Assembly (NCBI RefSeq): GCF_000685315.1
Contig: NZ_ARYM01000014.1
Coordinates: forward strand, 1-64,000
Length of the DNA stretch: 64,000 nucleotides
From: Hyphomonas polymorpha PS728
GTDB lineage: Bacteria > Pseudomonadota > Alphaproteobacteria > Caulobacterales > Hyphomonadaceae
Reading direction: 5' to 3'
The notes under the pieces are model-generated. The model was not told the DNA's origin and made no database searches. It worked only from the letters and a program-made list of their open reading frames with translations. Numbering within the stretch: the stretch's first letter is position 1; the number at the start of each line of letters is the position of its first letter. Below are positions 2,169 to 13,943 of this stretch, piece by piece. A program made the position numbers and the translations under genes.

Positions 2169-3899
2169 TCAATCCTGGCAGGTACAGATAGCGCCGCCGT
2201 ACCGGTCCGGGCCGTAGCCTGCGATCTCCTGCGGCTCGGCGCAGGAGATTGCCTCGGCGGGCTGATACCGGATGTCCAGCCCGGCTTCCCGCATCAGGTA
2301 TATCCGTGAGTGCGCCATGTCCGGATAGACGCAGTAGCGTCCCCCGGCTGCCGCCATGGCGTTTATCTGGGCATTGACTTCGGCGTCACGTTGGGCGGCC
2401 AGCCGAGCGCCCGCTGCTCCCACGATCAGGCTGTTGAACAGCATCAATGCCAAGATCAGGCCGCCGAGGATTTGTGCGGCGCGGCTGTTTGCGGCCAGCG
2501 CTGCCGCAGTGATCGCCACCGGTACGAACCAGAATTGCGGCACATAGCGCGCCCACCAGTTCTGCGGCATCACGATCACCGAGAGTATCATCATGGCACT
2601 GATCACCAGCAGCCAGAGGGTTGTCTCGCTGCGCCAGCGCGGGCGAACGACCAGAGCAAGAGCGGCCGCGATCGACAGCAGGAAAATGCCCGAGAAAAAC
2701 GGCCCGAAGCCGGACAGGCGAACGTCCACGCCGCCTGCAGCGCGCAGTTCCTGCGGGGAGATGGAGAGGGGAAACTTCAGCTGCGGCGTTGTCGCATATC
2801 CAGAATGTGTTTCCGAGAAGAGAGAGTAGAAGAAACGTTCGGCTGCGGACATTCCCTCGAGAACTTCCGGCGTATTGTCGAGCGCGGGCCCTTCGCCGGT
2901 CATGATGTCGACCGCGTTTGGACCCATGATGGGGTGGAAGATGTGTCCTTGATCAAGGAAGTTCTGCATGTAGGGCGACCAGCCAAGCAAGACGACGGCC
3001 ACAAAGGCAGAAGCAAACAGCCCCGCCGCAAGCGCTGCCGCCCGGCGGAGGCCCCGCTGGAAGAAGATGCCGGCGCAGGCAAATCCGCAGAGGATCACGA
3101 ACATCGGAATGGCGGAAAATTTCAGGTTCAGGGCGAGTAGAAGTGTGATGAGCGCGGTAGCCAGAGCCAGCTTGTCGTCATATCGCGCCCACATCATGAT
3201 CGACACGGTGAATATCAGGATGCAGACGCCCAAGAGTCCGTCATTCATCGCCGTAAACAGCTGAGAGAGGACGATAGGGTTGAGCGAGACCACTGCGGTG
3301 AGCAGCGCTGCGACGAGCCATGAGAACCCCGCGCGGAAAAGTGCGCCCCCCAGCACTGCGGCGCCGGCAAGCAGAACAAGCAGATTGAGCACCTTGCCCA
3401 TTGCCAACGGAAACCCCGCCGTCATCAGCAGCGCGGCGAAATCCCACCCGCCGCGCGGATAGTGGATGGCCCACAAGGTAATCGGATCGCTAATCACCGC
3501 TGGCTCGGCGTTGCCATGCAGAGGGTTCCAGCCCTGAGCGAGGGCATAGATCGCCTGGAAATGATAATGCTGACCATCCATCGACGTATCGTGAACCAGC
3601 CCCGTCACAATCAGCGCGACGACAATGAGGCCCACCGAGACAAGCGGCGCAAAGCGCCAGCGGCCGGAGAGAAAAAACCGGGGCAGGTAGAGCCCTCCAG
3701 CAAGCGAAGCACCCAAGATGACCCAGGCCACCGGCGCGGAAAGTGCGCTGCCCGCTGTCAGCCATAAGGTCGTCAGGATGAATGCCAGCACCGGGAAGAA
3801 CAGCAGCGGCGTGCCGATTTCCCAGAGAATGGCCGATTGCGTCCCTTTCCGGTCGTCACTCGCATGATCGTATGGGCTGAGGAGTAGATGAGCGATCAT
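2169..3899 (-). CDS. polytopic membrane protein, GT-C glycosyltransferase-like
   Basis: A 576-residue protein with about eleven or twelve hydrophobic segments from residue 25 to about 495 and a soluble C-terminal tail with several cysteines. The first long loop, near residues 103-125, carries an acidic/aromatic motif (HDTSMDGQHYHFQAI...GWNP). This is the arrangement of GT-C enzymes, in which acidic residues in the first periplasmic loop bind a polyprenyl-phosphate sugar. I do not recognise the exact family. It stands alone, divergent from the first GT87 gene. No clear ribosome-binding site precedes the ATG, so the start is uncertain. Confidence 0.6.
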   Translation of the reverse strand: MIAHLLLSPYDHASDDRKGTQSAILWEIGTPLLFFPVLAFILTTLWLTAGSALSAPVAWVILGASLAGGLYLPRFFLSGRWRFAPLVSVGLIVVALIVTGLVHDTSMDGQHYHFQAIYALAQGWNPLHGNAEPAVISDPITLWAIHYPRGGWDFAALLMTAGFPLAMGKVLNLLVLLAGAAVLGGALFRAGFSWLVAALLTAVVSLNPIVLSQLFTAMNDGLLGVCILIFTVSIMMWARYDDKLALATALITLLLALNLKFSAIPMFVILCGFACAGIFFQRGLRRAAALAAGLFASAFVAVVLLGWSPYMQNFLDQGHIFHPIMGPNAVDIMTGEGPALDNTPEVLEGMSAAERFFYSLFSETHSGYATTPQLKFPLSISPQELRAAGGVDVRLSGFGPFFSGIFLLSIAAALALVVRPRWRSETTLWLLVISAMMILSVIVMPQNWWARYVPQFWFVPVAITAAALAANSRAAQILGGLILALMLFNSLIVGAAGARLAAQRDAEVNAQINAMAAAGGRYCVYPDMAHSRIYLMREAGLDIRYQPAEAISCAEPQEIAGYGPDRYGGAICTCQD

Positions 3900-4288
3900 G
3901 GCAGGGGCACACTGGATTGTTGAACCGGATCAGGCTTCGCGGGCAGGCGCCGCAGCGGGCAGGGATGCAATCTGCGTGCAAGATCAGCAGATCGGCTGGC
4001 GGAAATTTCCATCCGTCCTGAATGATCAGCAAATGATAGCAGTCTCAAAACCGGCGCCCCCGAAACGCAAAATCTGGCATGCGAAAGGACGCGCCGTCAA
4101 TCTGTGCCCGCCACCACAAAGGGAACCTTGGAAACGGCTGCGCCGCTGCAGTTTGTGGCCGATTTTACTGGGCATTCCTGCACATGCTCGCGGCGCGGCC
4201 GTGTGCATGAAAATTAGGCCGGAAGGGCATGTTCTGCTGGCATTCTGATTTCTTTGCGATATTTGGTTCAGACTGGACGGGGACACAA
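3900..4288. other. 389-bp divergent intergenic region
   Basis: The region separates two divergent membrane-glycosyltransferase genes. Open frames run through it on both strands, but they lack ribosome-binding sites and recognisable protein features, so I call no gene. It probably holds the promoters of both neighbours. I see no clear repeat, riboswitch or operator in it. Confidence 0.5.
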
Positions 4289-5674
4289 ATGTCGAATTTG
4301 CGCTCAAAGGCTGTTGCAGGCCGTCTGTCTGCATTCGTGGCTGGTTCGCCGAGAACCGCCGCCGCGCTGGCCGTGTACGCGCTTCTGGCTTGTGTCCTGC
4401 TGATTCATATTATGCTTGCCCTGGCCGGCCAGCAGTCTGGCGCGTGGATTTTACGCGGTATCGTGTCGAGTGAAACTCTGGAGGCTGCGGACTCCTGGAA
4501 TGTGATGATCGTGGCCCTCGAATGGCTGGACACGCATCCGGCTGCCGATGGCAGCCTCTATCGCGAAGTATTCTTCGAGCAGCAGCATAAATTCCAGTAT
4601 GCGCCCACAAGCCTGGTGCCCCTCGATGCCCTGCGACTGATGGGGTTCGAGCTTACGCCGCTGCTCCTCAACAATTTGAACCGCCTGATATTGCTCGCAT
4701 CGGCCCTGGGCGTGGGCGCGCTGTGTTGGCTTTTGCCGGAGCGCCTGATCAAAGGCCCGCTTGACGCCGACACGCGCCGCGCACGGCTGCTTTTGGCCGT
4801 GGCGGCGCCGGGCGCGGCGCTGCTCTTCTTTCCGTTGATCTATGGCTATCATATCGGCCAGCTGCAGGTGTGGATTAACGCGCTGTTCGTGGCCGCCTGC
4901 ATCGCCTGGGTAAGTGGTCACCGCGCCACCACAGGCGTGCTCATTGGGCTCGTCTGTATGCTGAAACCGCAATTCGGCCTGTTCCTCATCTGGGGCGCGC
5001 TCCGGCGTGAGTGGCGTTTCACCATTGCCCTCCTGGCAACCGGCACGCTGGGTCTTGCGCTGTCCGTTGTCCTCTACGGCTTCGGCAACCATCTCGCCTA
5101 TCTGGAGGTGCTCTCCTTCCTCTCCAGGCATGGCGAATCTTATTGGGCAAACCAATCTGCCAACGGCCTGATGCAGCGCATCTTCCAGAATGGCGAAATC
5201 CATGATTTCGGCGGCGATGCATTCCCTCCGTTCCATGCAGTCATTTACGCCGTCTCCATGCTGGTGACCGTTGCTTTCCTCGCCGGCATTTTCCGGTTAC
5301 GGCGCGCGGAAGGGGAAGGCGTCCCCTTCTTCGACTTCATGCTGGCGGCGCTGGTGTTCACCGCGGCCTCGCCCATCGCCTGGGAACACCATTACGGTAT
5401 TCTGGCGCCCATATTTGCCGTCATGGCCTCGGTGTGGATACTGGCTGCGCCGCGCAGCGGTCGTGGCTGGCTCGGTCTGGCGCTGTGCCTGGCTTTCCTG
5501 ATTGCGGCGCTTCCCCTGTGGGCGCTCCAATATGCACCCGGCTTGCTGCACCTGCTGATGTCGCATCTCTATTTCGCCGCGCTGTTCGCGCTGGCCGCTC
5601 TTTGGGGGCTGGTCAGAGGCCGCTGGGGTCTGCCGCCCGGCGATACTCCGCTCGCCGCTGGGGAAGCAGCGTGA
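4289..5674 (+). CDS. GT87/DUF2029 membrane glycosyltransferase
   Basis: A 461-residue polytopic protein matching the DUF2029/GT87 family, polyprenyl-phosphate-sugar-dependent enzymes of the GT-C fold (the mycobacterial members are alpha-mannosyl and arabinosyl transferases). Visible features are an early periplasmic loop with acidic residues, the GVLIGLVCMLKPQFGLFLIWG segment typical of the family, and about ten membrane helices. The ATG at 4289 is chosen because GGGGA lies 6 bases before it; an earlier in-frame ATG at 4229 has no such site. It is followed at 91 bases by a second family member. The sugar and acceptor cannot be read from the sequence. Confidence 0.75.
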   Translation: MSNLRSKAVAGRLSAFVAGSPRTAAALAVYALLACVLLIHIMLALAGQQSGAWILRGIVSSETLEAADSWNVMIVALEWLDTHPAADGSLYREVFFEQQHKFQYAPTSLVPLDALRLMGFELTPLLLNNLNRLILLASALGVGALCWLLPERLIKGPLDADTRRARLLLAVAAPGAALLFFPLIYGYHIGQLQVWINALFVAACIAWVSGHRATTGVLIGLVCMLKPQFGLFLIWGALRREWRFTIALLATGTLGLALSVVLYGFGNHLAYLEVLSFLSRHGESYWANQSANGLMQRIFQNGEIHDFGGDAFPPFHAVIYAVSMLVTVAFLAGIFRLRRAEGEGVPFFDFMLAALVFTAASPIAWEHHYGILAPIFAVMASVWILAAPRSGRGWLGLALCLAFLIAALPLWALQYAPGLLHLLMSHLYFAALFALAALWGLVRGRWGLPPGDTPLAAGEAA

Positions 5675-5765: not shown

Positions 5766-7055
5766 ATGCAATCGCTGATCATAAACGGGCTGCATCTCGC
5801 AGGGGCGATTGGCGGCTTTCTCGTAATCTACCGGCTCGCAGGCTCGGCCCAGATGTCGCGTTTCATGTGGCCATTCACGCTCCTGTGGGGCGCTGTGATG
5901 GCGGCGTTCATCTTTCTGGTCACGCAGCCAACGCTGGAGTTCATCTTCTGGGACTTCCGGTACTGCTACTGGCTGGCCGGCAACCTCATCTGGCAGGGCC
6001 CACCAGCGCTGATGAGCTCCTATGACGATGTGCTGTTCGTCAATATTCCGATCGTCGCCTATCTCTTCGCGCCGTTTGGATTGTTGCCGCCTTTGGCGGC
6101 GTCGATTGTCTTTACACTGCTCGGTCTTGCTGCTGCCTGGGCCATCTGGCGGCTGCTGGTGCAAATGTTCGCGCTCGATCCGCGGGAAAGCGCGCTGCTC
6201 TGCTTTGCGCTCTGTGTCTATGGTCCGCTCATCTATGTGCTCAAGGTCGGCAACACATCGCATTTCATGCTGCTGCTGTTGCTCGGCGGTCTGATGATGG
6301 CCCGGTCGGGAAAGGATGTTTCCGCTGGCGTGTTGTTCGGGATCGCTGCGGTCATCAAGCCGTCGCTGCTGCTGATCGGCGTACTTTACTTCCTGCGGGG
6401 GCGTTGGCTGGTCGTCGCGGGCGGGGCAGCCGTGGTTATTAGTTCCCTGACTCTGTCATTGCTGATCTTCGGATGGGACATGCACGTCTACTGGTATGAG
6501 ACCACAATCCAGCCTTTCACGTCCAATCCCGTGCTCGCCAGCGCCAATCAGGCAGTGGGCGGCATGGTCGCGCGGTTTGAATCCGGTGGTGCGGACTGGC
6601 AGGATTTCAGCCCCTACATCCTGTCCCCCGTCAGCAAGCTGATCGCGCAGGGCCTGACGCTGACGATTATTGCCGGCATGCTCTATGCGGTCTGGCGTTC
6701 GGGCCGAATTTTCCGCCTGTCCAATCAGGATATGGAGCTGGAAGTCCTGATGATCCTCGCCCTCGGCCTGTCCGTCTCGGCGTTGTCTTGGGCGCACTAT
6801 CATATCTGGGCGTTGCCGGCGCTTGTTTTGCTTTGGGCCCGGTCGCGTCCCGGCGGACCGCTCGCGCGGCTGCGCTGGCCGCTGATTGCGACTTATGCCC
6901 TGCTGGCGGGCGCCGTCTTTGTGAGCCATTCGATGACATTGGGGCGGTTCGGACCGGTTTCCAACTTCATCGTTTCACACTGGCTGTGGGGCGCGCTCGC
7001 CACGCTGATCCTGCTCGCGATCGTCAGGGCGCAGCGAACGCCGCCGGCCGGCTGA
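5766..7055 (+). CDS. GT87/DUF2029 membrane glycosyltransferase
   Basis: A 429-residue polytopic protein of the same DUF2029/GT87 family as the gene before it. The signature GVLFGIAAVIKPSLLLIGVLYFLRGRW lies near residues 190-220, and the first loop has FWDFRYCYWLAGNL. A GTGGAG ribosome-binding site precedes the ATG. The two GT87 genes are in the same direction and probably form an operon. This gene ends one base before the stop codon of the convergent SDR gene, so there is no terminator spacer between the glycosyltransferase pair and the acylation operon. Confidence 0.78.
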   Translation: MQSLIINGLHLAGAIGGFLVIYRLAGSAQMSRFMWPFTLLWGAVMAAFIFLVTQPTLEFIFWDFRYCYWLAGNLIWQGPPALMSSYDDVLFVNIPIVAYLFAPFGLLPPLAASIVFTLLGLAAAWAIWRLLVQMFALDPRESALLCFALCVYGPLIYVLKVGNTSHFMLLLLLGGLMMARSGKDVSAGVLFGIAAVIKPSLLLIGVLYFLRGRWLVVAGGAAVVISSLTLSLLIFGWDMHVYWYETTIQPFTSNPVLASANQAVGGMVARFESGGADWQDFSPYILSPVSKLIAQGLTLTIIAGMLYAVWRSGRIFRLSNQDMELEVLMILALGLSVSALSWAHYHIWALPALVLLWARSRPGGPLARLRWPLIATYALLAGAVFVSHSMTLGRFGPVSNFIVSHWLWGALATLILLAIVRAQRTPPAG

Positions 7056-7820
7056 TCAGCAGGAAACGCCGCCGTCCACCAGGATCGTCTGCCCGGTAAT
7101 CATGCGCGCGCCGTCCGACAGCAGGAAACGCACCAGATTGGTCACGTCCTCGTCTTCGGCCAGCATGCCCAGCGGGGTGCGGTTGACGATCTGGTTCAGC
7201 TGAACCGGTGTGAGTACGGACGACATTTCCGTCAGCACATAGCCCGGCGCCACCGAGTTCACGGTAATCTTCCGGCGGCCAAGTTCACGCGCCAGCGCGC
7301 GGGTGAGGCCGTCCATACCGGCCTTGGAGGCCGAATAGGCGCTCATGCCATTATAGCCACGGCTGCCGATGATGGAGGAGATGTTGATGATGCGTCCGCC
7401 CTTGTTGGCGCGCAGCATGTATTCTGATGCAGCGCGGGCCGCCTGAATGGCGCCGAACAGGTTCACCTTGAGGATCTTTTCGGTCTCGCGGTTCGGGAAG
7501 GAGGCGAGAATGCCCGTCTGCGCGACGCCGGCATTATTCACAAGGCCCCACAGATTGTCCTTGCCCGCCCATTCAACGGCTGCATTGACGAATGCATCCA
7601 CCTGATCGGCTTCGCCCACTTCACAGCGGCTCCAGAAGAAGCGCGACCCGTATTCCGGATGCGCTGCCAAGGCTTCGATGTTGGCAGACTTTGAGCGCGA
7701 ACAGGTCGAGATGTGATACCCGTCTGCCAGCAGGCTTGCGATCATTGCCGCGCCGAGACCCCGGCTGCCGCCGGTCACGATCACATGGCGTGAGTTGAGA
7801 GAGGGCGCGGAGCCAGTCAT
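7056..7820 (-). CDS. SDR-family oxidoreductase, FabG-like
   Basis: A 254-residue short-chain dehydrogenase/reductase. The cofactor motif T16GGSRGLG23, the NNAG motif and the catalytic Ser...YSASK set are all present, and the length is that of classical SDRs such as 3-oxoacyl-ACP reductase. The start is placed at 7820, four bases after the stop of the ANL ligase; an ATG at 7862 lies inside that gene. It is the last gene of the MBOAT-SGNH-ACP-ligase operon. Its place beside an acyl carrier protein suggests it reduces a 3-oxoacyl group to a 3-hydroxyacyl group, which would define the group transferred by the cassette. That step is inference. Confidence 0.8.
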   Translation of the reverse strand: MTGSAPSLNSRHVIVTGGSRGLGAAMIASLLADGYHISTCSRSKSANIEALAAHPEYGSRFFWSRCEVGEADQVDAFVNAAVEWAGKDNLWGLVNNAGVAQTGILASFPNRETEKILKVNLFGAIQAARAASEYMLRANKGGRIINISSIIGSRGYNGMSAYSASKAGMDGLTRALARELGRRKITVNSVAPGYVLTEMSSVLTPVQLNQIVNRTPLGMLAEDEDVTNLVRFLLSDGARMITGQTILVDGGVSC

Positions 7821-7824
7821 GTTC

Positions 7825-9123
7825 TTAGCCTTTCTTGCCGGATTCGCGCACGGCGATGGCATCCACCACCTTGAAGGCGCGCGGCACCTGATATTGAGCG
7901 AGATTTTCGCGGCAGGCCGCCAGGATGGCGCTGCGTGTTTCGGCAGGGTCGAGCCCTGGTTCGATCACCACATCGGCAGCCACAAGCTGGCCGCTGATCG
8001 GGTTGGCCACGCCATAGACATGCGCCTCCATCACACCGGGCTGCTTTAGAAGGAACTGCTCCACCATCAGCGGATAAACCTTGGAACCAGCCACATTGAT
8101 CGTGCTGTCGTCCCGGCCAACGATGAAGGCGCGGTCGCCGCGGATCTCCACGCGGTCGGCCGTCGCCAGCCAGCCATCATCGAGACGCGGCTGGGCCGTG
8201 TCGGAAACATACCCACCCATCGCATTGGGCGTGCGGATATGCAGGAACCCGTCACGCACGCGCATCGTCACGCCCTGCGTTTCCGTGTCCAGCCATTCGG
8301 CGGGGAAGCCTTCGCGCCCGTCGTGTACGGAGAATACGACGCCCGCCTCGGTTGAGGCATAGATATGCGTCACCCGGGCATCGGGGAAAGCCTTGCGGAT
8401 ACGGTCCAGGGTCGACTGGTCCGCCGCTTCGCCCCCCAGGGTGATCTGGCGCAGGGTGAGATCGCCGGGGCGCACCACCATAAGGAAAGCGCGCCAGAAA
8501 GTCGGCGTGGCAGAAATCTGGGTAACACCGTTGGCCTTGGCCGCTTCAAGGAAACCGGCAGGCGTGCGCTCGTCGGGCGCCACGACAACGCCGCGCCCCA
8601 CCACGGCGGTGAGCTGCACCTGCACACCGGCAAAGCCCGTTGGCTGATAGGTGAGGAGCCATTTTGCGCCGCGATTGCCCGGATGCATGGCCGCTTTGGC
8701 GCGGCTCATCAGGGCGCTCAGGCTATGGGACGCAATCTTTGGCGCGCCGGTCGTGCCCGATGTCATCATGAAGATGCGGGCACTGGCAGCGTCGGCCGGC
8801 GTTTCGCCGGTGAGTTTGTCGCCAGCAGACACGACCATCTGTACGCCGAACTTCTTCACCACAGCGTCGATATGCGCCTCGGGAAGGTTGGTGTGTGCGA
8901 TGAACAGGTCCGCGCCCGTGCGGCTGGCCGCATCAATGGCACGGAGGATGTGGAACGGGTCGTCAGACCGCACCATCAGACGCGAAACGTCCGCTTCGCC
9001 CATCGCTGCCACCAGGCTCTCCGCCGCACGCGCAAGATTCCCGCGGCTCAACATGCCGCGGGCATTTGCGATCAGCGGAGCGGTGTCACTCGTGTCGAGT
9101 CCGAAGGCGCCGGCAGCAATCAT
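7825..9123 (-). CDS. ANL-superfamily acyl-activating ligase (DltA-like role)
   Basis: A 432-residue AMP-forming ligase. The phosphate-binding loop T121SGTTGAPK129, the YASTE motif at 255-259, the ATP-ribose Asp in TADR near 323 and the hinge GRDD near 337-340 are all present. The catalytic lysine of motif A10 is K430 in RESGKKG, almost the last residue. The region before the P-loop is shorter than in most family members (about 120 residues), so the N-terminal subdomain is reduced. It overlaps the ACP gene by 4 bases, so it most likely loads an acid onto that carrier, as DltA does for DltC. The substrate is unknown. Confidence 0.85.
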   Translation of the reverse strand: MIAAGAFGLDTSDTAPLIANARGMLSRGNLARAAESLVAAMGEADVSRLMVRSDDPFHILRAIDAASRTGADLFIAHTNLPEAHIDAVVKKFGVQMVVSAGDKLTGETPADAASARIFMMTSGTTGAPKIASHSLSALMSRAKAAMHPGNRGAKWLLTYQPTGFAGVQVQLTAVVGRGVVVAPDERTPAGFLEAAKANGVTQISATPTFWRAFLMVVRPGDLTLRQITLGGEAADQSTLDRIRKAFPDARVTHIYASTEAGVVFSVHDGREGFPAEWLDTETQGVTMRVRDGFLHIRTPNAMGGYVSDTAQPRLDDGWLATADRVEIRGDRAFIVGRDDSTINVAGSKVYPLMVEQFLLKQPGVMEAHVYGVANPISGQLVAADVVIEPGLDPAETRSAILAACRENLAQYQVPRAFKVVDAIAVRESGKKG

Positions 9124-9365
9124 TTTGCGTAGAGCTTCGCAAGTTCGCCGACGGTGCGGAATTCGATGAAGCCTTCTGCGAAGGGGTCATGGCCGACCAC
9201 GTCTTCCAGTTCGCGCACCAGCATGGCGAGGTCGAGAGAGTCGATGCTGATCGCACCGCCGAGCAGTTCTGTCTCCGGCTCAATGGTTGCGGCCTTCACG
9301 CCTTTGTCTTCCAGCATGCGCTGAACGATCGAGGTGATGTGTTCGAGAACCTGTGCTTCGGTCAT
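9120..9365 (-). CDS. acyl carrier protein (DltC-like role)
   Basis: An 81-residue carrier protein with the phosphopantetheine attachment site at S43 in IDSLDLAML, near the usual position, within a predominantly acidic four-helix sequence. A strong AAGGAG site precedes the ATG at 9365. The gene overlaps both neighbours by 4 bases (ATGA), so it is translated with the SGNH protein and the ligase. It is a dedicated carrier rather than the housekeeping AcpP, because it sits in the acylation operon away from fatty-acid genes. It must be activated by a phosphopantetheinyl transferase; one of Sfp type is encoded at 35125. Confidence 0.9.
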   Translation of the reverse strand: MTEAQVLEHITSIVQRMLEDKGVKAATIEPETELLGGAISIDSLDLAMLVRELEDVVGHDPFAEGFIEFRTVGELAKLYAK

Positions 9366-10450
9366 GGTTGTGTCTCCTTGGAAGATTGTGAGGGTTGGCT
9401 GCCGCACATCGCGTCTTCGCCAAATTGGGTGAGGATATCATCTGCCAGCATCTTGGAACGGATCGGGCGCCCGTTCTCGTTGAGGTGATAGACGGTGTCA
9501 AAGTGCAGCTTTTTGTCGAACCGGAAACCGCTGGCCGGGCGGGGGATCAGAAACTCCGGCACGGTGGCCATCTCGGCATTCAGCCGGTCGATCTCCTTGC
9601 TGTGGCGATCATAGAAATCGTCCAGCAGGGGCGTCCAGGAAATCATCACGCGCACGCCGCGTGCGTCCATGTCGCGAACGAACTGCCGCATCATTGGAAT
9701 GATTTCCTGATCCATCGGGATGCTGGAAATGTCCATCGCATCGATTGGTTCATGCGGCCAGTTAACGCCTACATGTCCGACCAGGTCGCCATTGCGGGTG
9801 AAGTTGCGTGCGCTCTCGATGTCGAGAATATCAACCTCAGTCCACGGCGCATCTGGTTCGGCGCCCAGCATATAGGTGAAGTTGTCATAGGTCTCGCCCA
9901 TTATGCGCAGCACCTTCTGCTGGGCAATGAAGGGAAACCGGCTCATCGCGGAGAGCTTCTGATAGGGGGTCAGGAATTTGAATACGCGCGGATTGGCCTT
10001 GGAAACCGTCAGCAAGTCGGTATTCGTTCCGTTCACAGACTTGTAGTAGCTGTCATACTCCCAGGCGATGACGACGAGATCGCCCGGCTTGAGATAGGGT
10101 TTCACTTCTTCCAGCATGAAGCGGACGCCAAAATAGCCGTTCATGCCCATATTGACGACCGGGCAATGGGTGGCCGCTTCTATCACCGTGCTGTCGGTGC
10201 CGTAGGAAACATTGGAGCCGCCCACGAGAACGATCTTTTTGGGAACATCCATCTCCAGCAGGTCGTGCTTCAGATTGGACGCCTGCGCATAGTCGCCATC
10301 ATCGGGTACGAGAACCGCAATTGCCACGGTCGTTGCAAAGGCTGCGGCGACCAGGAGAGCGGCCGGCAGGAAAAATCCGATCACGGCGAAGCGGCTGGGC
10401 TTCGCCTTGCCAGCTTCCGTCTGCTCGGGGGAGGGAGGGGCGGTGTCCAT
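9362..10450 (-). CDS. membrane-anchored SGNH-like protein (DltD-like role)
   Basis: A 362-residue protein with one N-terminal membrane helix (about residues 16-42) and a large domain that would face the periplasm. The candidate nucleophile is S79 in LVGGSNVSYGTD, the block I of SGNH hydrolases. A candidate late block is D318...H322 in FDTVYHLNENG. DltD, AlgX and AlgJ proteins have this layout and pass or accept acyl groups beside an MBOAT protein. It starts one base after the MBOAT stop and overlaps the ACP start by 4 bases. An ATG at 10528 lies inside the MBOAT gene and is rejected as the start. Confidence 0.72.
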   Translation of the reverse strand: MDTAPPSPEQTEAGKAKPSRFAVIGFFLPAALLVAAAFATTVAIAVLVPDDGDYAQASNLKHDLLEMDVPKKIVLVGGSNVSYGTDSTVIEAATHCPVVNMGMNGYFGVRFMLEEVKPYLKPGDLVVIAWEYDSYYKSVNGTNTDLLTVSKANPRVFKFLTPYQKLSAMSRFPFIAQQKVLRIMGETYDNFTYMLGAEPDAPWTEVDILDIESARNFTRNGDLVGHVGVNWPHEPIDAMDISSIPMDQEIIPMMRQFVRDMDARGVRVMISWTPLLDDFYDRHSKEIDRLNAEMATVPEFLIPRPASGFRFDKKLHFDTVYHLNENGRPIRSKMLADDILTQFGEDAMCGSQPSQSSKETQP

Positions 10451-10451
10451 A

Positions 10452-11921
10452 TCAGAACCTGAAGTAGATGAAGGCAATTTGAGACCCGTAGAAGGCGCCC
10501 AGCAGAACCACTGCCAGCGTGCCGACATAATAAAGACTCCAGCGCATCCAGACCGGGCGGCTATTGATGGCTTCGCGCATGTTGATCCGCCCCTGCAGCA
10601 CTTCGGCGCCCATCACCACGGCAATGCCGATCAGCGCCAGGAAGAACTCGTTCCGGTTCGCGCCAACCACTGACAGCAGATTGGCCTTGAAGTCGCCCCA
10701 GCCGGTGCCAAGGCTGCCTACCATGTGCAGGGCGTCCTCCATCGTTGGTGCGCGGAAGAAGATGTAGGCAAAACAGACCAGCGAGAAGGTCACGGTAATC
10801 TTCAGCGCCCGGTAAAGGTTGGGCCGGTCAACCAGCTTCACTGTGCGGGCGAAATTGTTCCAGCGCTTCTGAAGCAGCAGGGACACCACGATATACCCGC
10901 CATGCAGCGCGCCCCAGACCACATAGGTCCATGCAGCGCCATGCCACAGGCCGCTCACCACGAAGGTGATGAACATGGCGTAGAGCATCAGGTTGAACAG
11001 CTTGATCTTGAACGTCTTCTGCCGGGTAATCGGCGTGAAGATGTAATCGGTCAGCCAGGAGGTCAGCGAGATGTGCCAGCGCTTCCAGAAATCCTGGATA
11101 GAGGTGGCGAAATAGGGCCGGTTGAAGTTCTGCGTCAGCCGGTAGCCAAAGATCAGGCCGATGCCGAGCGCAATATCAGTGTAGCCTGAGAAGTCGCAGT
11201 AAAGCTGGAAGGCATAAAGCCAGGTGGCAAAGGCGATCTGCACGCCATTGGCCGCGTCGGGATTGTCATAGATGGCGTTGACGAAAGGCGCGATCCGGTC
11301 GGCCACGAACACTTTCTTGAACACGCCCCAAAGGATCAGCTGCAGGCCCAGCATGGCCTGCGTCCGGTCAAATGCGGGATGGGCGTGGATCTGCGGCAGC
11401 AGGTTTTTCGCCCGCTCGATCGGGCCGGCCACCAGCTTGGGGAAGAAGGTCACATACAGCGCAAAGGCGCCAAATTCCCGCTCTGCCTTCTGCTGGCCGC
11501 GAAAGATGTCGACCAGATAGGAAATCAGCTGGAAGGTGTAGAAAGAGATACCGATCGGAAGCAGCCACTGCAATTCGGGAACGGGATACTCAACATGCGC
11601 CATGCCGAGGATCGAGCGCAGCGTCTCGTTCAGGAAGGGCGTGTATTTGAAAACGACCAGGTTCGCCGTCAGCAGCACGACGCCCAGCGCCATGATCTTC
11701 TGCTTGGCTTTCTTGTCCGGCACCGCCTCAATCCTTTGGCCCAGCCAGAAAGAGAGGCCGGTGGCCGCCAGAATTTGCACCAGGAAAATGGGTTCAGCGA
11801 GGCCGTAGAAGAACAGGCTGGCCGCCAGCAGCCAGATCCATCGCGCGCGTACCGGCAGCAGGAAGTGAACAACCGTCACCACCGCCAGGAAAATCACAAA
11901 CTGCGTCGAAATGAACGCCAC
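10452..11921 (-). CDS. MBOAT-family membrane O-acyltransferase (DltB/AlgI-like)
   Basis: A 489-residue polytopic protein with the full MBOAT pattern: LLPIGISFYTFQLISYLVDI, FFPKLVAGPIERA, FSGYTDIALGIG, FWKRWHISLTSWLTDYIF, and the catalytic H327 in SGLWHGAAW. MBOAT proteins of this branch carry an acyl group across the inner membrane and add it to an extracytoplasmic sugar or polymer. It is the first gene of a five-gene operon continued by the SGNH protein, carrier protein, ligase and reductase. AlgI would use a cytoplasmic donor without a dedicated carrier; the ACP and ligase here argue for DltB-like use of a carrier-bound acyl group. Confidence 0.88.
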   Translation of the reverse strand: MAFISTQFVIFLAVVTVVHFLLPVRARWIWLLAASLFFYGLAEPIFLVQILAATGLSFWLGQRIEAVPDKKAKQKIMALGVVLLTANLVVFKYTPFLNETLRSILGMAHVEYPVPELQWLLPIGISFYTFQLISYLVDIFRGQQKAEREFGAFALYVTFFPKLVAGPIERAKNLLPQIHAHPAFDRTQAMLGLQLILWGVFKKVFVADRIAPFVNAIYDNPDAANGVQIAFATWLYAFQLYCDFSGYTDIALGIGLIFGYRLTQNFNRPYFATSIQDFWKRWHISLTSWLTDYIFTPITRQKTFKIKLFNLMLYAMFITFVVSGLWHGAAWTYVVWGALHGGYIVVSLLLQKRWNNFARTVKLVDRPNLYRALKITVTFSLVCFAYIFFRAPTMEDALHMVGSLGTGWGDFKANLLSVVGANRNEFFLALIGIAVVMGAEVLQGRINMREAINSRPVWMRWSLYYVGTLAVVLLGAFYGSQIAFIYFRF

Positions 11922-12072: not shown

Positions 12073-12465
12073 TCAGCGGAACGTGAACAGCTTGTGCCCG
12101 AAGAAATTAACTACCGCGCCGATGCCGATGCCTGCCATGTGCGACGCGCCAGGCGCATAATGCCGGTAGGCCTCCGGCCACCACGGCCCGCTGCTCAGCA
12201 CAAGCGCGGCCAGTACGGTCACCACGCCGGCAACGATGTTGACCCCGATAAAATCACGGATCTGCAGCCACAGCGGCCGGGTCGATCCCTGAAACACCAG
12301 GCTGCGATACAGAATAAAGCCTGCCACCATGCCAATCGCCGTCGCTGCCGTCACGGCGGCCGCATAGGTCATGAACATAGACAGAGGAAACCTGACGATC
12401 CAGTTCAGCAGGGCGGCTGAGCCGCCCGCCAGCAGAAACCGGACCCGCTCGTCCCGCAACAACAT
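12073..12465 (-). CDS. GtrA-like membrane protein
   Basis: A 130-residue protein with four membrane helices and the GtrA-family opening FLLAGGSAALLNWIVRF, ending in GAVVNFFGHKLFTFR, also typical. GtrA proteins are thought to move or present polyprenyl-phosphate-linked sugars. The start at 12465 lies two bases after the stop of the HAD-UbiA gene, so the two are coupled. In mycobacteria a GtrA protein (Rv3789) lies in the arabinan locus with the UbiA-type phosphoribosyltransferase, which supports a joint role here. Confidence 0.83.
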   Translation of the reverse strand: MLLRDERVRFLLAGGSAALLNWIVRFPLSMFMTYAAAVTAATAIGMVAGFILYRSLVFQGSTRPLWLQIRDFIGVNIVAGVVTVLAALVLSSGPWWPEAYRHYAPGASHMAGIGIGAVVNFFGHKLFTFR

Positions 12466-12467
12466 GA

Positions 12468-13943
12468 TCAAAGCGGCACTCCGAACCAGGCCAGGAAGAA
12501 ACAGACGGCCGCCAGCGCCGCATAGGCAAGGCACACCCGGTCCTTGACCACGAACACCACCGGATCGTCATCCAGGTCGCCGCGCTGGCACACCACCCAG
12601 ATGCGGCTGGAGATCAGGAAGATCAGCGGCGGCAAGGCCCACAACCAGTCGCCCACCTTGATGAAGCTCTGCTGGTGCGCGTCCTCGATGATGTAGAGAA
12701 CCATGATGACCACGGCAGCAATCGAGCTTGCGATGCCGGCCGCCAGTACCAGCGGCAGGTCGGACGCGCGATAGCCCCGCCCGCTCACCCAGTTACCGCC
12801 CTTTTCGATAACGCGGGCAATCTCGGTGTGGCGTTTGGCAAAGGCCAGTGAGGTGAAGAAGAACATCGCGAAGACAAACAGCCAGGGCGAGGGCTCTGCG
12901 GCCACCGCCACCATGCCCACGACCAGCCGCAGCGTGAAAAGGCTGGCGAGGGTGAAGGCATCATGGATCACCTTGCGCTTCAGCCAGAGGGAATAGGTGA
13001 GGGTAACGACAACGTAGATCAGCACCCATTGCAGCACCGCCAGCCCGGCCATCAGCGCCAGCGCCAATCCGGCCACAAAGCAGATCAGCGCGCCGAAGAT
13101 ACCGGCCGGCAGCGACAGCGTGCCGCTGGCAAACGGCCGCAGCCGTTTGGACCAGTGCTGCCGGTCGTCCTGCAGATCCCAGATATCGTTGAACACATAG
13201 GTCGCAGACGCGGTGAGCGAGAGCGCAAAGAAGGCCAGGATCAGAGGAAGGATGGAGGAAGGCTCGATGATCTTGCCCGAAAGCACTGCCGGCACGACCA
13301 CCAGAACGTTCTTTGCCCACTGGTGCGGGCGCAGGCATTTGATGAAAGCTTTCAGCACGGTGGGGCGCGGAATGACCTGAACAACATTCGCGCTCTTGCG
13401 CGCCTTGCTGACGGTGCCGCGCGAGGCGCCCACCACAATGGCGTTGCGGGCGCGCTTCCAGACTTCAAGATCGGCCCGGCTGTCGCCCGCATAATCAAAG
13501 CCTTCGGGAAACCGCTTCATCAACGCTTCGGCTTTTGTCTTGCCCTTGAGGTTCACACCGGCTTCGGTCGCCAGAACTTCGGAGATGAATGGAAACTTTT
13601 CCAGGAACAGCTTTGCCGTCTCGGTATGGGCGGCGGTTGCCAGAACAACCTTCCGGCCCTTGTCCGCCTCCTGCTGCGCCAGCGCGACAACCTCTTCATT
13701 GACGGGCAGGAGTTCCGGGTTCACCGGCACAGCGGCGGCAAGGCGCTCCTTCAGCGTCACGCGGCCGGCCATCACCCAGCCAATCAGCTGGAAGATCGAG
13801 AAGGGATTGCGGCGCACGAAGGCCAGCATCTGCTCGATCAGGGAATCGGTGCGGATCAGCGTCTCATCCAGGTCCAGAACCAGCGGAACGGGATCTGCCC
13901 CACCGGGGGTGGCGATTGTTACGGGGGTGCCGTTATCGATCAT
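12468..13943 (-). CDS. HAD phosphatase-UbiA prenyltransferase fusion
   Basis: A 491-residue two-domain protein. Residues 18-200 are a HAD hydrolase with motif I D24-L-D26-E-T. Residues from about 205 onward are a UbiA-family membrane enzyme with RPHQWAKNVLV and, near residue 250, NDIWDLQDDRQ followed by KRLRP. These motifs are closest to decaprenyl-phosphate phosphoribosyltransferases (Rv3806c type) rather than to ubiquinone or haem enzymes. I infer it makes polyprenyl-phosphoribose 5-phosphate and removes the 5-phosphate with its own HAD domain. The start at 13943 is the ATG just before the HAD domain. No DprE1/DprE2 epimerase genes are nearby. Confidence 0.75.
   Translation of the reverse strand: MIDNGTPVTIATPGGADPVPLVLDLDETLIRTDSLIEQMLAFVRRNPFSIFQLIGWVMAGRVTLKERLAAAVPVNPELLPVNEEVVALAQQEADKGRKVVLATAAHTETAKLFLEKFPFISEVLATEAGVNLKGKTKAEALMKRFPEGFDYAGDSRADLEVWKRARNAIVVGASRGTVSKARKSANVVQVIPRPTVLKAFIKCLRPHQWAKNVLVVVPAVLSGKIIEPSSILPLILAFFALSLTASATYVFNDIWDLQDDRQHWSKRLRPFASGTLSLPAGIFGALICFVAGLALALMAGLAVLQWVLIYVVVTLTYSLWLKRKVIHDAFTLASLFTLRLVVGMVAVAAEPSPWLFVFAMFFFTSLAFAKRHTEIARVIEKGGNWVSGRGYRASDLPLVLAAGIASSIAAVVIMVLYIIEDAHQQSFIKVGDWLWALPPLIFLISSRIWVVCQRGDLDDDPVVFVVKDRVCLAYAALAAVCFFLAWFGVPL

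Follow-up and report, generated by a model that had tools for sequence, protein, structure and literature searches.

A candidate carrier-protein-fed MBOAT/SGNH acylation operon in Hyphomonas polymorpha, with a donor cassette of the mupirocin and thiomarinol kind

What would an operon holding the four protein types of the Gram-positive Dlt system, and a reductase besides, be doing in a Gram-negative bacterium? The question is raised by a five-gene operon in Hyphomonas polymorpha PS728 (contig NZ_ARYM01000014.1, positions 1 to 64,000; this whole stretch of 64,000 nucleotides is hereafter the window). In Gram-positive bacteria, Dlt puts D-alanine on teichoic acid. The first-pass annotation of the window had seen a Dlt-like logic in the Hyphomonas genes, in which a ligase loads a carrier protein, and a membrane O-acyltransferase (MBOAT) and an SGNH protein export the acyl group, perhaps a hydroxyacyl, to a periplasmic glycan. 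The answer given here, held with somewhat better than even confidence, is that its products acylate an envelope glycan by way of an MBOAT and an SGNH protein that a carrier protein feeds, the predicted cargo being an omega-hydroxyacyl group.

The five genes (Table 1) are intact and full length, without internal stops, and run in the order MBOAT, SGNH protein, acyl carrier protein (ACP), ANL ligase and short-chain dehydrogenase/reductase (SDR). The junctions measure +1 (MBOAT-SGNH), -4 (SGNH-ACP), -4 (ACP-ligase) and +4 bases (ligase-SDR), and the stop of the SDR gene (7056) abuts that of a convergent GT87 glycosyltransferase gene (7055). Coordinates, strand and tight packing are thus as first annotated, and so are Ser43 of the carrier and Lys430 of the ligase, both invariant in relatives. 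Could the grouping be fortuitous? The ligase is present in 6 of 105 Hyphomonadaceae genomes, and the five genes stand together in the same order in seven genomes, namely all six of these and one further metagenome-assembled genome (MAG; L004); L002 and G056 are one genome, counted once, and L003 is taken as G058. Because the order, whose co-occurrence across the family the first-pass annotation had proposed to follow, is kept in every ligase-bearing Hyphomonadaceae genome and in the MAG, the grouping is not a matter of chance. Ligase identity across these genomes is 54-97%, and the identities of operon proteins among members fall as low as 36-56%; the nearest database records of the ligase come from Hyphomonas and alphaproteobacterial MAGs (94-97% identity). 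The MBOAT belongs to a subfamily, scoring 893-951 bits, that is found in exactly the same 6 of the 105 genomes, the next MBOAT of the family reaching 330 bits; since the profile was built from the subfamily its high scores are partly so by construction, but the empty range from 330 to 893 is not.

Table 1. Features of the operon, of its neighbours in the window and of related loci in other genomes (L numbers denote loci with their own coordinates)
Feature	Position	Strand	Remarks
MBOAT membrane O-acyltransferase	10452..11921	-	489 residues, GTG start; PF03062 92.3 bits, over cut-off
C-terminal FIYFRF hexapeptide of the MBOAT	10455..10472	-	residues 484-489; Tyr486 is the predicted acyl shuttle
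Membrane-anchored periplasmic SGNH acyltransferase	9362..10450	-	362 residues; predicted nucleophile Ser79 (10214-10216), His322/Asp318
Acyl carrier protein	9120..9365	-	81 residues, IDSLDLA, Ser43; PF00550 23.1 bits (cut-off 20.8)
ANL ligase, TmlQ/MupQ kind	7825..9123	-	432 residues, Lys430; PF00501 82 bits, PF13193 (AMP-binding_C) 49.5 bits
SDR reductase, TmlS/MupS kind	7056..7820	-	254 residues, Ser-Tyr162-Lys166; adh_short 179 bits
GT87 GT-C glycosyltransferase, convergent with the operon	5766..7055	+	PF09594 86.1 bits
Second GT87 glycosyltransferase	4229..5674	+	PF09594 59.6 bits
Polytopic membrane protein, probable GT-C	2169..3899	-	no Pfam match; synteny kept in near relatives L002 and L003
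GtrA-like flippase-type protein	12073..12534	-	PF04138 56.8 bits
HAD-UbiA fusion prenyltransferase	12468..13940	-	PF01040/PF12710; NF006088 604.7 bits, cut-off 351
Cassette inside pseudaminic-acid loci	L047:2738-11810; L060:524-16784; L007-L010; L049; L055; L045		

Where would the acyl group come from? Judged by their sequences, the ligase, ACP and SDR are homologues of a cassette that primes antibiotic synthesis, MupQ/MupS/MacpD of mupirocin and TmlQ/TmlS/TacpD of thiomarinol. Searched against solved structures, the ACP profile finds MacpD best (3.8e-10; next 8.5e-4). The thiomarinol plasmid pTML1 has adjacent genes for a ligase, an SDR and an ACP, which by position and size we take to be TmlQ, TmlS and TacpD. 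The operon ligase is 30% identical to TmlQ over 318 residues, the SDR 43% identical to TmlS over 242 residues, and the ACP, with its 81 residues against 111, 35% identical to TacpD over 78. In the opposite direction, TmlQ searched against the source genome finds the operon ligase first, at 130 bits against 47.8 for the next match; TmlS finds the operon SDR first among 45 matches, at 183 bits against 121. Cassette profiles built with TmlQ and TmlS left out recover TmlQ at 220 bits, the other tested ligases of the genome reaching at most 97, and TmlS at 273 bits, the other SDRs reaching at most 191. Phylogenetic trees agree: the SDR falls in one clade with TmlS (support 97/94), and the ligase clade has support 100/97. 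The SDR tree has long branches that stem from some wrong-frame open reading frames included with the other SDRs of the genome, but the kinship with TmlS does not depend on this tree, since the profile test and the best genome match of TmlS agree without any tree. Phage records searched for the ligase yielded distant generic ligases only.

The mupirocin trio is reported to make an omega-hydroxyacyl-ACP from a dicarboxylyl-CoA, that is a coenzyme A (CoA) thioester (PMC10098928), and labelling supports 4-hydroxybutyrate, from succinate, as the thiomarinol starter (PMC4685789). Because ligase, ACP and SDR are all homologous to this cassette, the acyl group handled in Hyphomonas is probably 3-hydroxypropionyl or 4-hydroxybutyryl. 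The earlier proposal is sharpened by this: a hydroxyacyl rather than D-alanine is favoured, now one of these two, and the reductase, correctly recorded as an addition to the Dlt set, is explained as the cassette member of the TmlS/MupS kind. It had also been said that a ligase-carrier pair from a polyketide pathway would speak against an envelope role. Such an origin holds for the ancestry of the pair and not for its context, since no ketosynthase was found on the operon's contig and the cassette recurs in glycan loci. The mupirocin and thiomarinol cassettes feed chain extension, whereas the Hyphomonas trio has no ketosynthase or polyketide synthase (PKS) nearby and its predicted product would go to the MBOAT.

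How would such a group leave the cytoplasm? PF03062 has a single match in the source genome, the operon MBOAT, which therefore does not duplicate a housekeeping PatA or AlgI. It matches DltB structures (phmmer, 1e-30), and two of its histidines, His283 and His327, correspond in the alignment to the RWH and WHG histidines in DltB. Its FIYFRF tail, invariant in all six aligned members, fits the FXYXXF acyl-shuttle motif, a hexapeptide that is acylated in PatA and that in Dlt is found on a separate microprotein, DltX (PMC12148441). Since the shuttle peptide ends the MBOAT itself, the MBOAT/SGNH pair is by architecture of the PatA/AlgI type, and not a DltB with its DltX; as in PatA/PatB and AlgI-type pairs, a separate SGNH protein goes with it. 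PatA uses acetyl-CoA, however, and such pairs are described as having no carrier (PMC12148441), whereas the Hyphomonas pair sits with a ligase and an ACP, a linkage that argues against acyl-CoA as its donor. The SGNH protein matches no Pfam family at or above cut-off. Its AlphaFold2 (AF2) model has a mean predicted local distance difference test score (pLDDT) of only 59, with a well-predicted core that takes the SGNH fold (VIA-align Z of about 13 to TesA, platelet-activating factor acetylhydrolase and acetyl esterases). The motifs GGSN, NMGMNG and FD..H are invariant in the seven members, as are S79, N104, D318 and H322. When the model was searched for neighbours like DltD, AlgJ or PatB, the top ranks held generic SGNH hydrolases only, which do not separate these three.

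The proposed pathway would then run in four steps. By homology to characterised enzymes, the ligase would spend ATP on linking holo-ACP to the carboxylate left free in a dicarboxylyl-CoA (malonyl- or succinyl-CoA), mupirocin priming having a bis-CoA/ACP thioester as intermediate. On the same grounds, the SDR would then reduce the thioester at the CoA end to the alcohol, so that the ACP comes to carry 3-hydroxypropionyl or 4-hydroxybutyryl. On its cytoplasmic side the MBOAT would unload the ACP and bind the acyl group to Tyr486 of its own tail, from where the anchored SGNH protein may accept it on Ser79 and pass it to a glycan hydroxyl, the glycan being periplasmic, polyprenyl-linked or at the cell surface and presumably built by the adjacent GT87, UbiA and GtrA genes. 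We infer the ACP-to-MBOAT transfer and the glycan acceptor from linkage, and the donor chemistry from the homologues.

Is the cassette found with sugars elsewhere? Its ligase occurs in 20 of 397 other Pseudomonadota genomes, drawn evenly (about 5%), and relatives with 51% identity are present in a Myxococcales (Myxococcota) and a Bryobacterales (Acidobacteriota) MAG. Pseudaminic-acid genes lie beside the cassette in 4 of the 15 phylum-level loci read (L045, L047, L049, L055). In L047 PseB, C, F, G, H and I all exceed their NCBIfam cut-offs, and in Azospirillum brasilense Sp7 the pseudaminic-acid locus that holds the cassette ends in a flagellin gene. The homologous trio of such loci (L047, L060 and others) presumably makes acyl-ACP for a surface glycan as well, but the acyltransferase is there GNAT (PseH-like) or AAC(3)-like and expected to be cytosolic, whereas Hyphomonas has an exporting MBOAT/SGNH pair. 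An AAC(3)-like N-acyltransferase adjoins the cassette in L006 and L047, and a hexapeptide acyltransferase in Qingshengfaniella, Haematobacter and L056. With partners that differ from one glycan locus to another, the cassette behaves as a module that supplies donors to various sugar acyltransferases, the exporting MBOAT/SGNH pair being the one in Hyphomonas. 4-Hydroxybutyryl amides on pseudaminic-acid residues are known chemically (PMC9912281). Not every locus fits this donor-module view, six alphaproteobacterial ones (L046, L048, L051, L053, L054, L058) having a thiamine pyrophosphate enzyme or a second AMP-ligase of 580-600 residues.

Some cassette loci carry further genes. The pseudaminic-acid loci of Asticcacaulis and A. 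brasilense Sp7 add KASIII and Rieske genes, and the presence of KASIII and Rieske oxygenases suggests that the hydroxyacyl on flagellar or surface pseudaminic acid is extended or oxidised. Next to the cassette of L047 (6685-7599), a PseH N-acyltransferase is fused to a MaoC-like hydratase domain. On a plasmid of Rhizobium sp. T1470 (L063:8934-15296) a related ligase and SDR stand beside a gene annotated as a CmlS-like FADH2-dependent halogenase, possibly in a small-molecule cluster.

Around the operon itself, GT87 is the bordering gene in all seven member genomes, and UbiA, with or without GtrA, lies close to it in all members but L004. The HAD-UbiA fusion, which has relatives (E up to 1e-40) in 35 of the 105 Hyphomonadaceae, may serve the synthesis of polyprenyl-phosphate sugar donors. 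In G067 (L163), UbiA, a GtrA-family gene and GT87 are adjacent, the operon being absent between them; in G046 (L164), where trigger factor and the gene beside it mark the corresponding position, the operon's place is taken by genes for an AT3 acyltransferase, a GT2 and another GtrA. This exchange of one acyltransferase type for another at a glycan locus supports glycan acylation, and the envelope-glycan acceptor that had been tentatively deduced from the glycosyltransferase and GtrA/UbiA genes is likewise favoured here. At the edge of the window, a Shedu defence protein, SduA, is encoded at 24-1088 on the plus strand (PADLOC 482.8 bits; Pfam SduA_C 104 bits).

Several points weigh against a carrier-fed glycan acylation system. 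With an identity to TmlQ of only 30%, the ligase may have shifted in substrate (malonyl-CoA, succinyl-CoA or another) and even in its bis-thioester chemistry. For MBOAT/SGNH pairs other than Dlt, acyl-CoA is the described donor, without a carrier protein (PMC12148441). In what was searched, no cassette stood beside an MBOAT outside Hyphomonadaceae, and the hand-over from ACP to MBOAT is therefore argued from linkage and co-occurrence alone; the nearest MBOATs outside the family (34-40% identity) have no cassette, and no second independent pairing was found. The AF2 model of the MBOAT (pLDDT 45) is too poor for the ACP face and was not used. Finally, the source genome has no DprE1-like ALO protein, and the UbiA partner is therefore no pointer to an arabinan pathway; that candidate, raised by the UbiA/GtrA/GT87 neighbours, was rejected on this account and because ALO presence does not track the operon.

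Might the operon nevertheless be a genuine Dlt system, with D-alanine going to a glycan of a Gram-negative? The same four protein types are present, dlt genes are already known in the Gram-negatives Dickeya, Pectobacterium and Photorhabdus (PMC3544676), and the MBOAT scores 184.8 bits, its best, with the DltB model TIGR04091. The cut-off of that model is 375, however; the DltA model TIGR01734 misses the operon ligase at E 0.001, although it picks up 32 weak matches, all below cut-off, elsewhere in the genome; and for DltC and DltD neither the ACP nor the SGNH protein has an NCBIfam or Pfam match at E up to 1. In DltA an acidic residue (Asp) holds the amino group of the substrate, and the A4 stretch of the operon ligase, TYQPTGFAGVQ, has no acidic residue of this kind; the reductase would moreover be left without explanation. 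The comparison with DltA, B, C and D profiles, called for by the first-pass annotation, thus rules out membership of the Dlt family, and a true Dlt system has next to no claim here. What is retained, tentatively, is the logic of Gram-positive DltABCD and DltX: a ligase loads a carrier, and the acyl group then reaches an envelope polymer through export by an MBOAT and an SGNH protein. In Hyphomonas, by contrast, the shuttle is fused to the MBOAT so that no DltX is needed, a reductase is added, and the acyl group is predicted to be a hydroxyacid.

The other explanations keep parts of this scheme. With the same architecture, the ligase might activate a free short hydroxy- or oxo-acid such as acetoacetate or 3-hydroxybutyrate, and a FabG-like SDR would provide 3-hydroxybutyryl-ACP to the MBOAT. 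The best NCBIfam model of the SDR is indeed a 3-oxoacyl-ACP reductase (210.6 bits, below its cut-off of 297.75), Sinorhizobium fredii is known to carry 3-hydroxybutyryl on its pseudaminic acid (PMC3788101), and one pseudaminic-acid-linked PseH carries a MaoC-like domain. But the SDR clusters with TmlS and is set off from the remaining SDRs of the genome, and S. fredii was rejected as a direct precedent for the cassette, the plasmid collection giving no Sinorhizobium match for the ligase; we regard this explanation as unlikely. A shade less likely again is that the MBOAT/SGNH pair is an ordinary acetyl-CoA O-acetyltransferase, PatA/PatB or AlgI-like, while the trio acylates a sugar nucleotide or lipid through an unlinked acyltransferase. 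Use of acyl-CoA by the characterised non-Dlt pairs (PMC12148441) and the occurrence of the trio without an MBOAT elsewhere would agree with this, but the operon holds no other acyltransferase, its genes either share 4 bases or are at most 4 apart, and MBOAT subfamily and trio share exactly the same six genomes. That the cassette generates starter units for a polyketide or other small molecule, as its homologues do for thiomarinol and mupirocin, is very improbable: a cassette in Burkholderia stagnalis does adjoin a PKS-sized gene of 6.3 kb, annotated as SDR family, but the Hyphomonas contig lacks a ketosynthase, the neighbours are glycosyltransferases and GtrA/UbiA, and MBOAT/SGNH pairs act on envelope polymers.

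Among Gram-negative systems, AlmEFG of Vibrio cholerae, compared by description only, likewise has a ligase and a carrier feeding acyl transfer to the envelope, but there glycine is placed on lipid A by a transferase of another kind. Taken as a carrier-fed acylation system, the Hyphomonas operon would combine the carrier logic of Dlt, a PatA-type shuttle and a mupirocin-type donor cassette and, within the open-access literature, would be a new variant of MBOAT/SGNH acylation. The chances seem evenly balanced for the wider claim: an undescribed envelope modification, in which a Gram-negative MBOAT/SGNH pair fed by an ACP places 3-hydroxypropionyl or 4-hydroxybutyryl esters, derived from malonyl- or succinyl-CoA, on a surface glycan, the "antibiotic" priming cassette being a widespread glycan-decoration module for different acyltransferases. 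If true, it would break the rule that a carrier protein is peculiar to Dlt and that acyl-CoA serves the other MBOAT/SGNH pairs, and would predict specific esters whose free terminal hydroxyl could be decorated or polymerised further. It would also suggest a genetic origin for the 4-hydroxybutyryl groups of some pseudaminic-acid glycans, and the cassette would become a genome marker for finding such glycans. The starter cassette of mupirocin and thiomarinol would then be one member of a wider module that may most often serve to decorate surface sugars.

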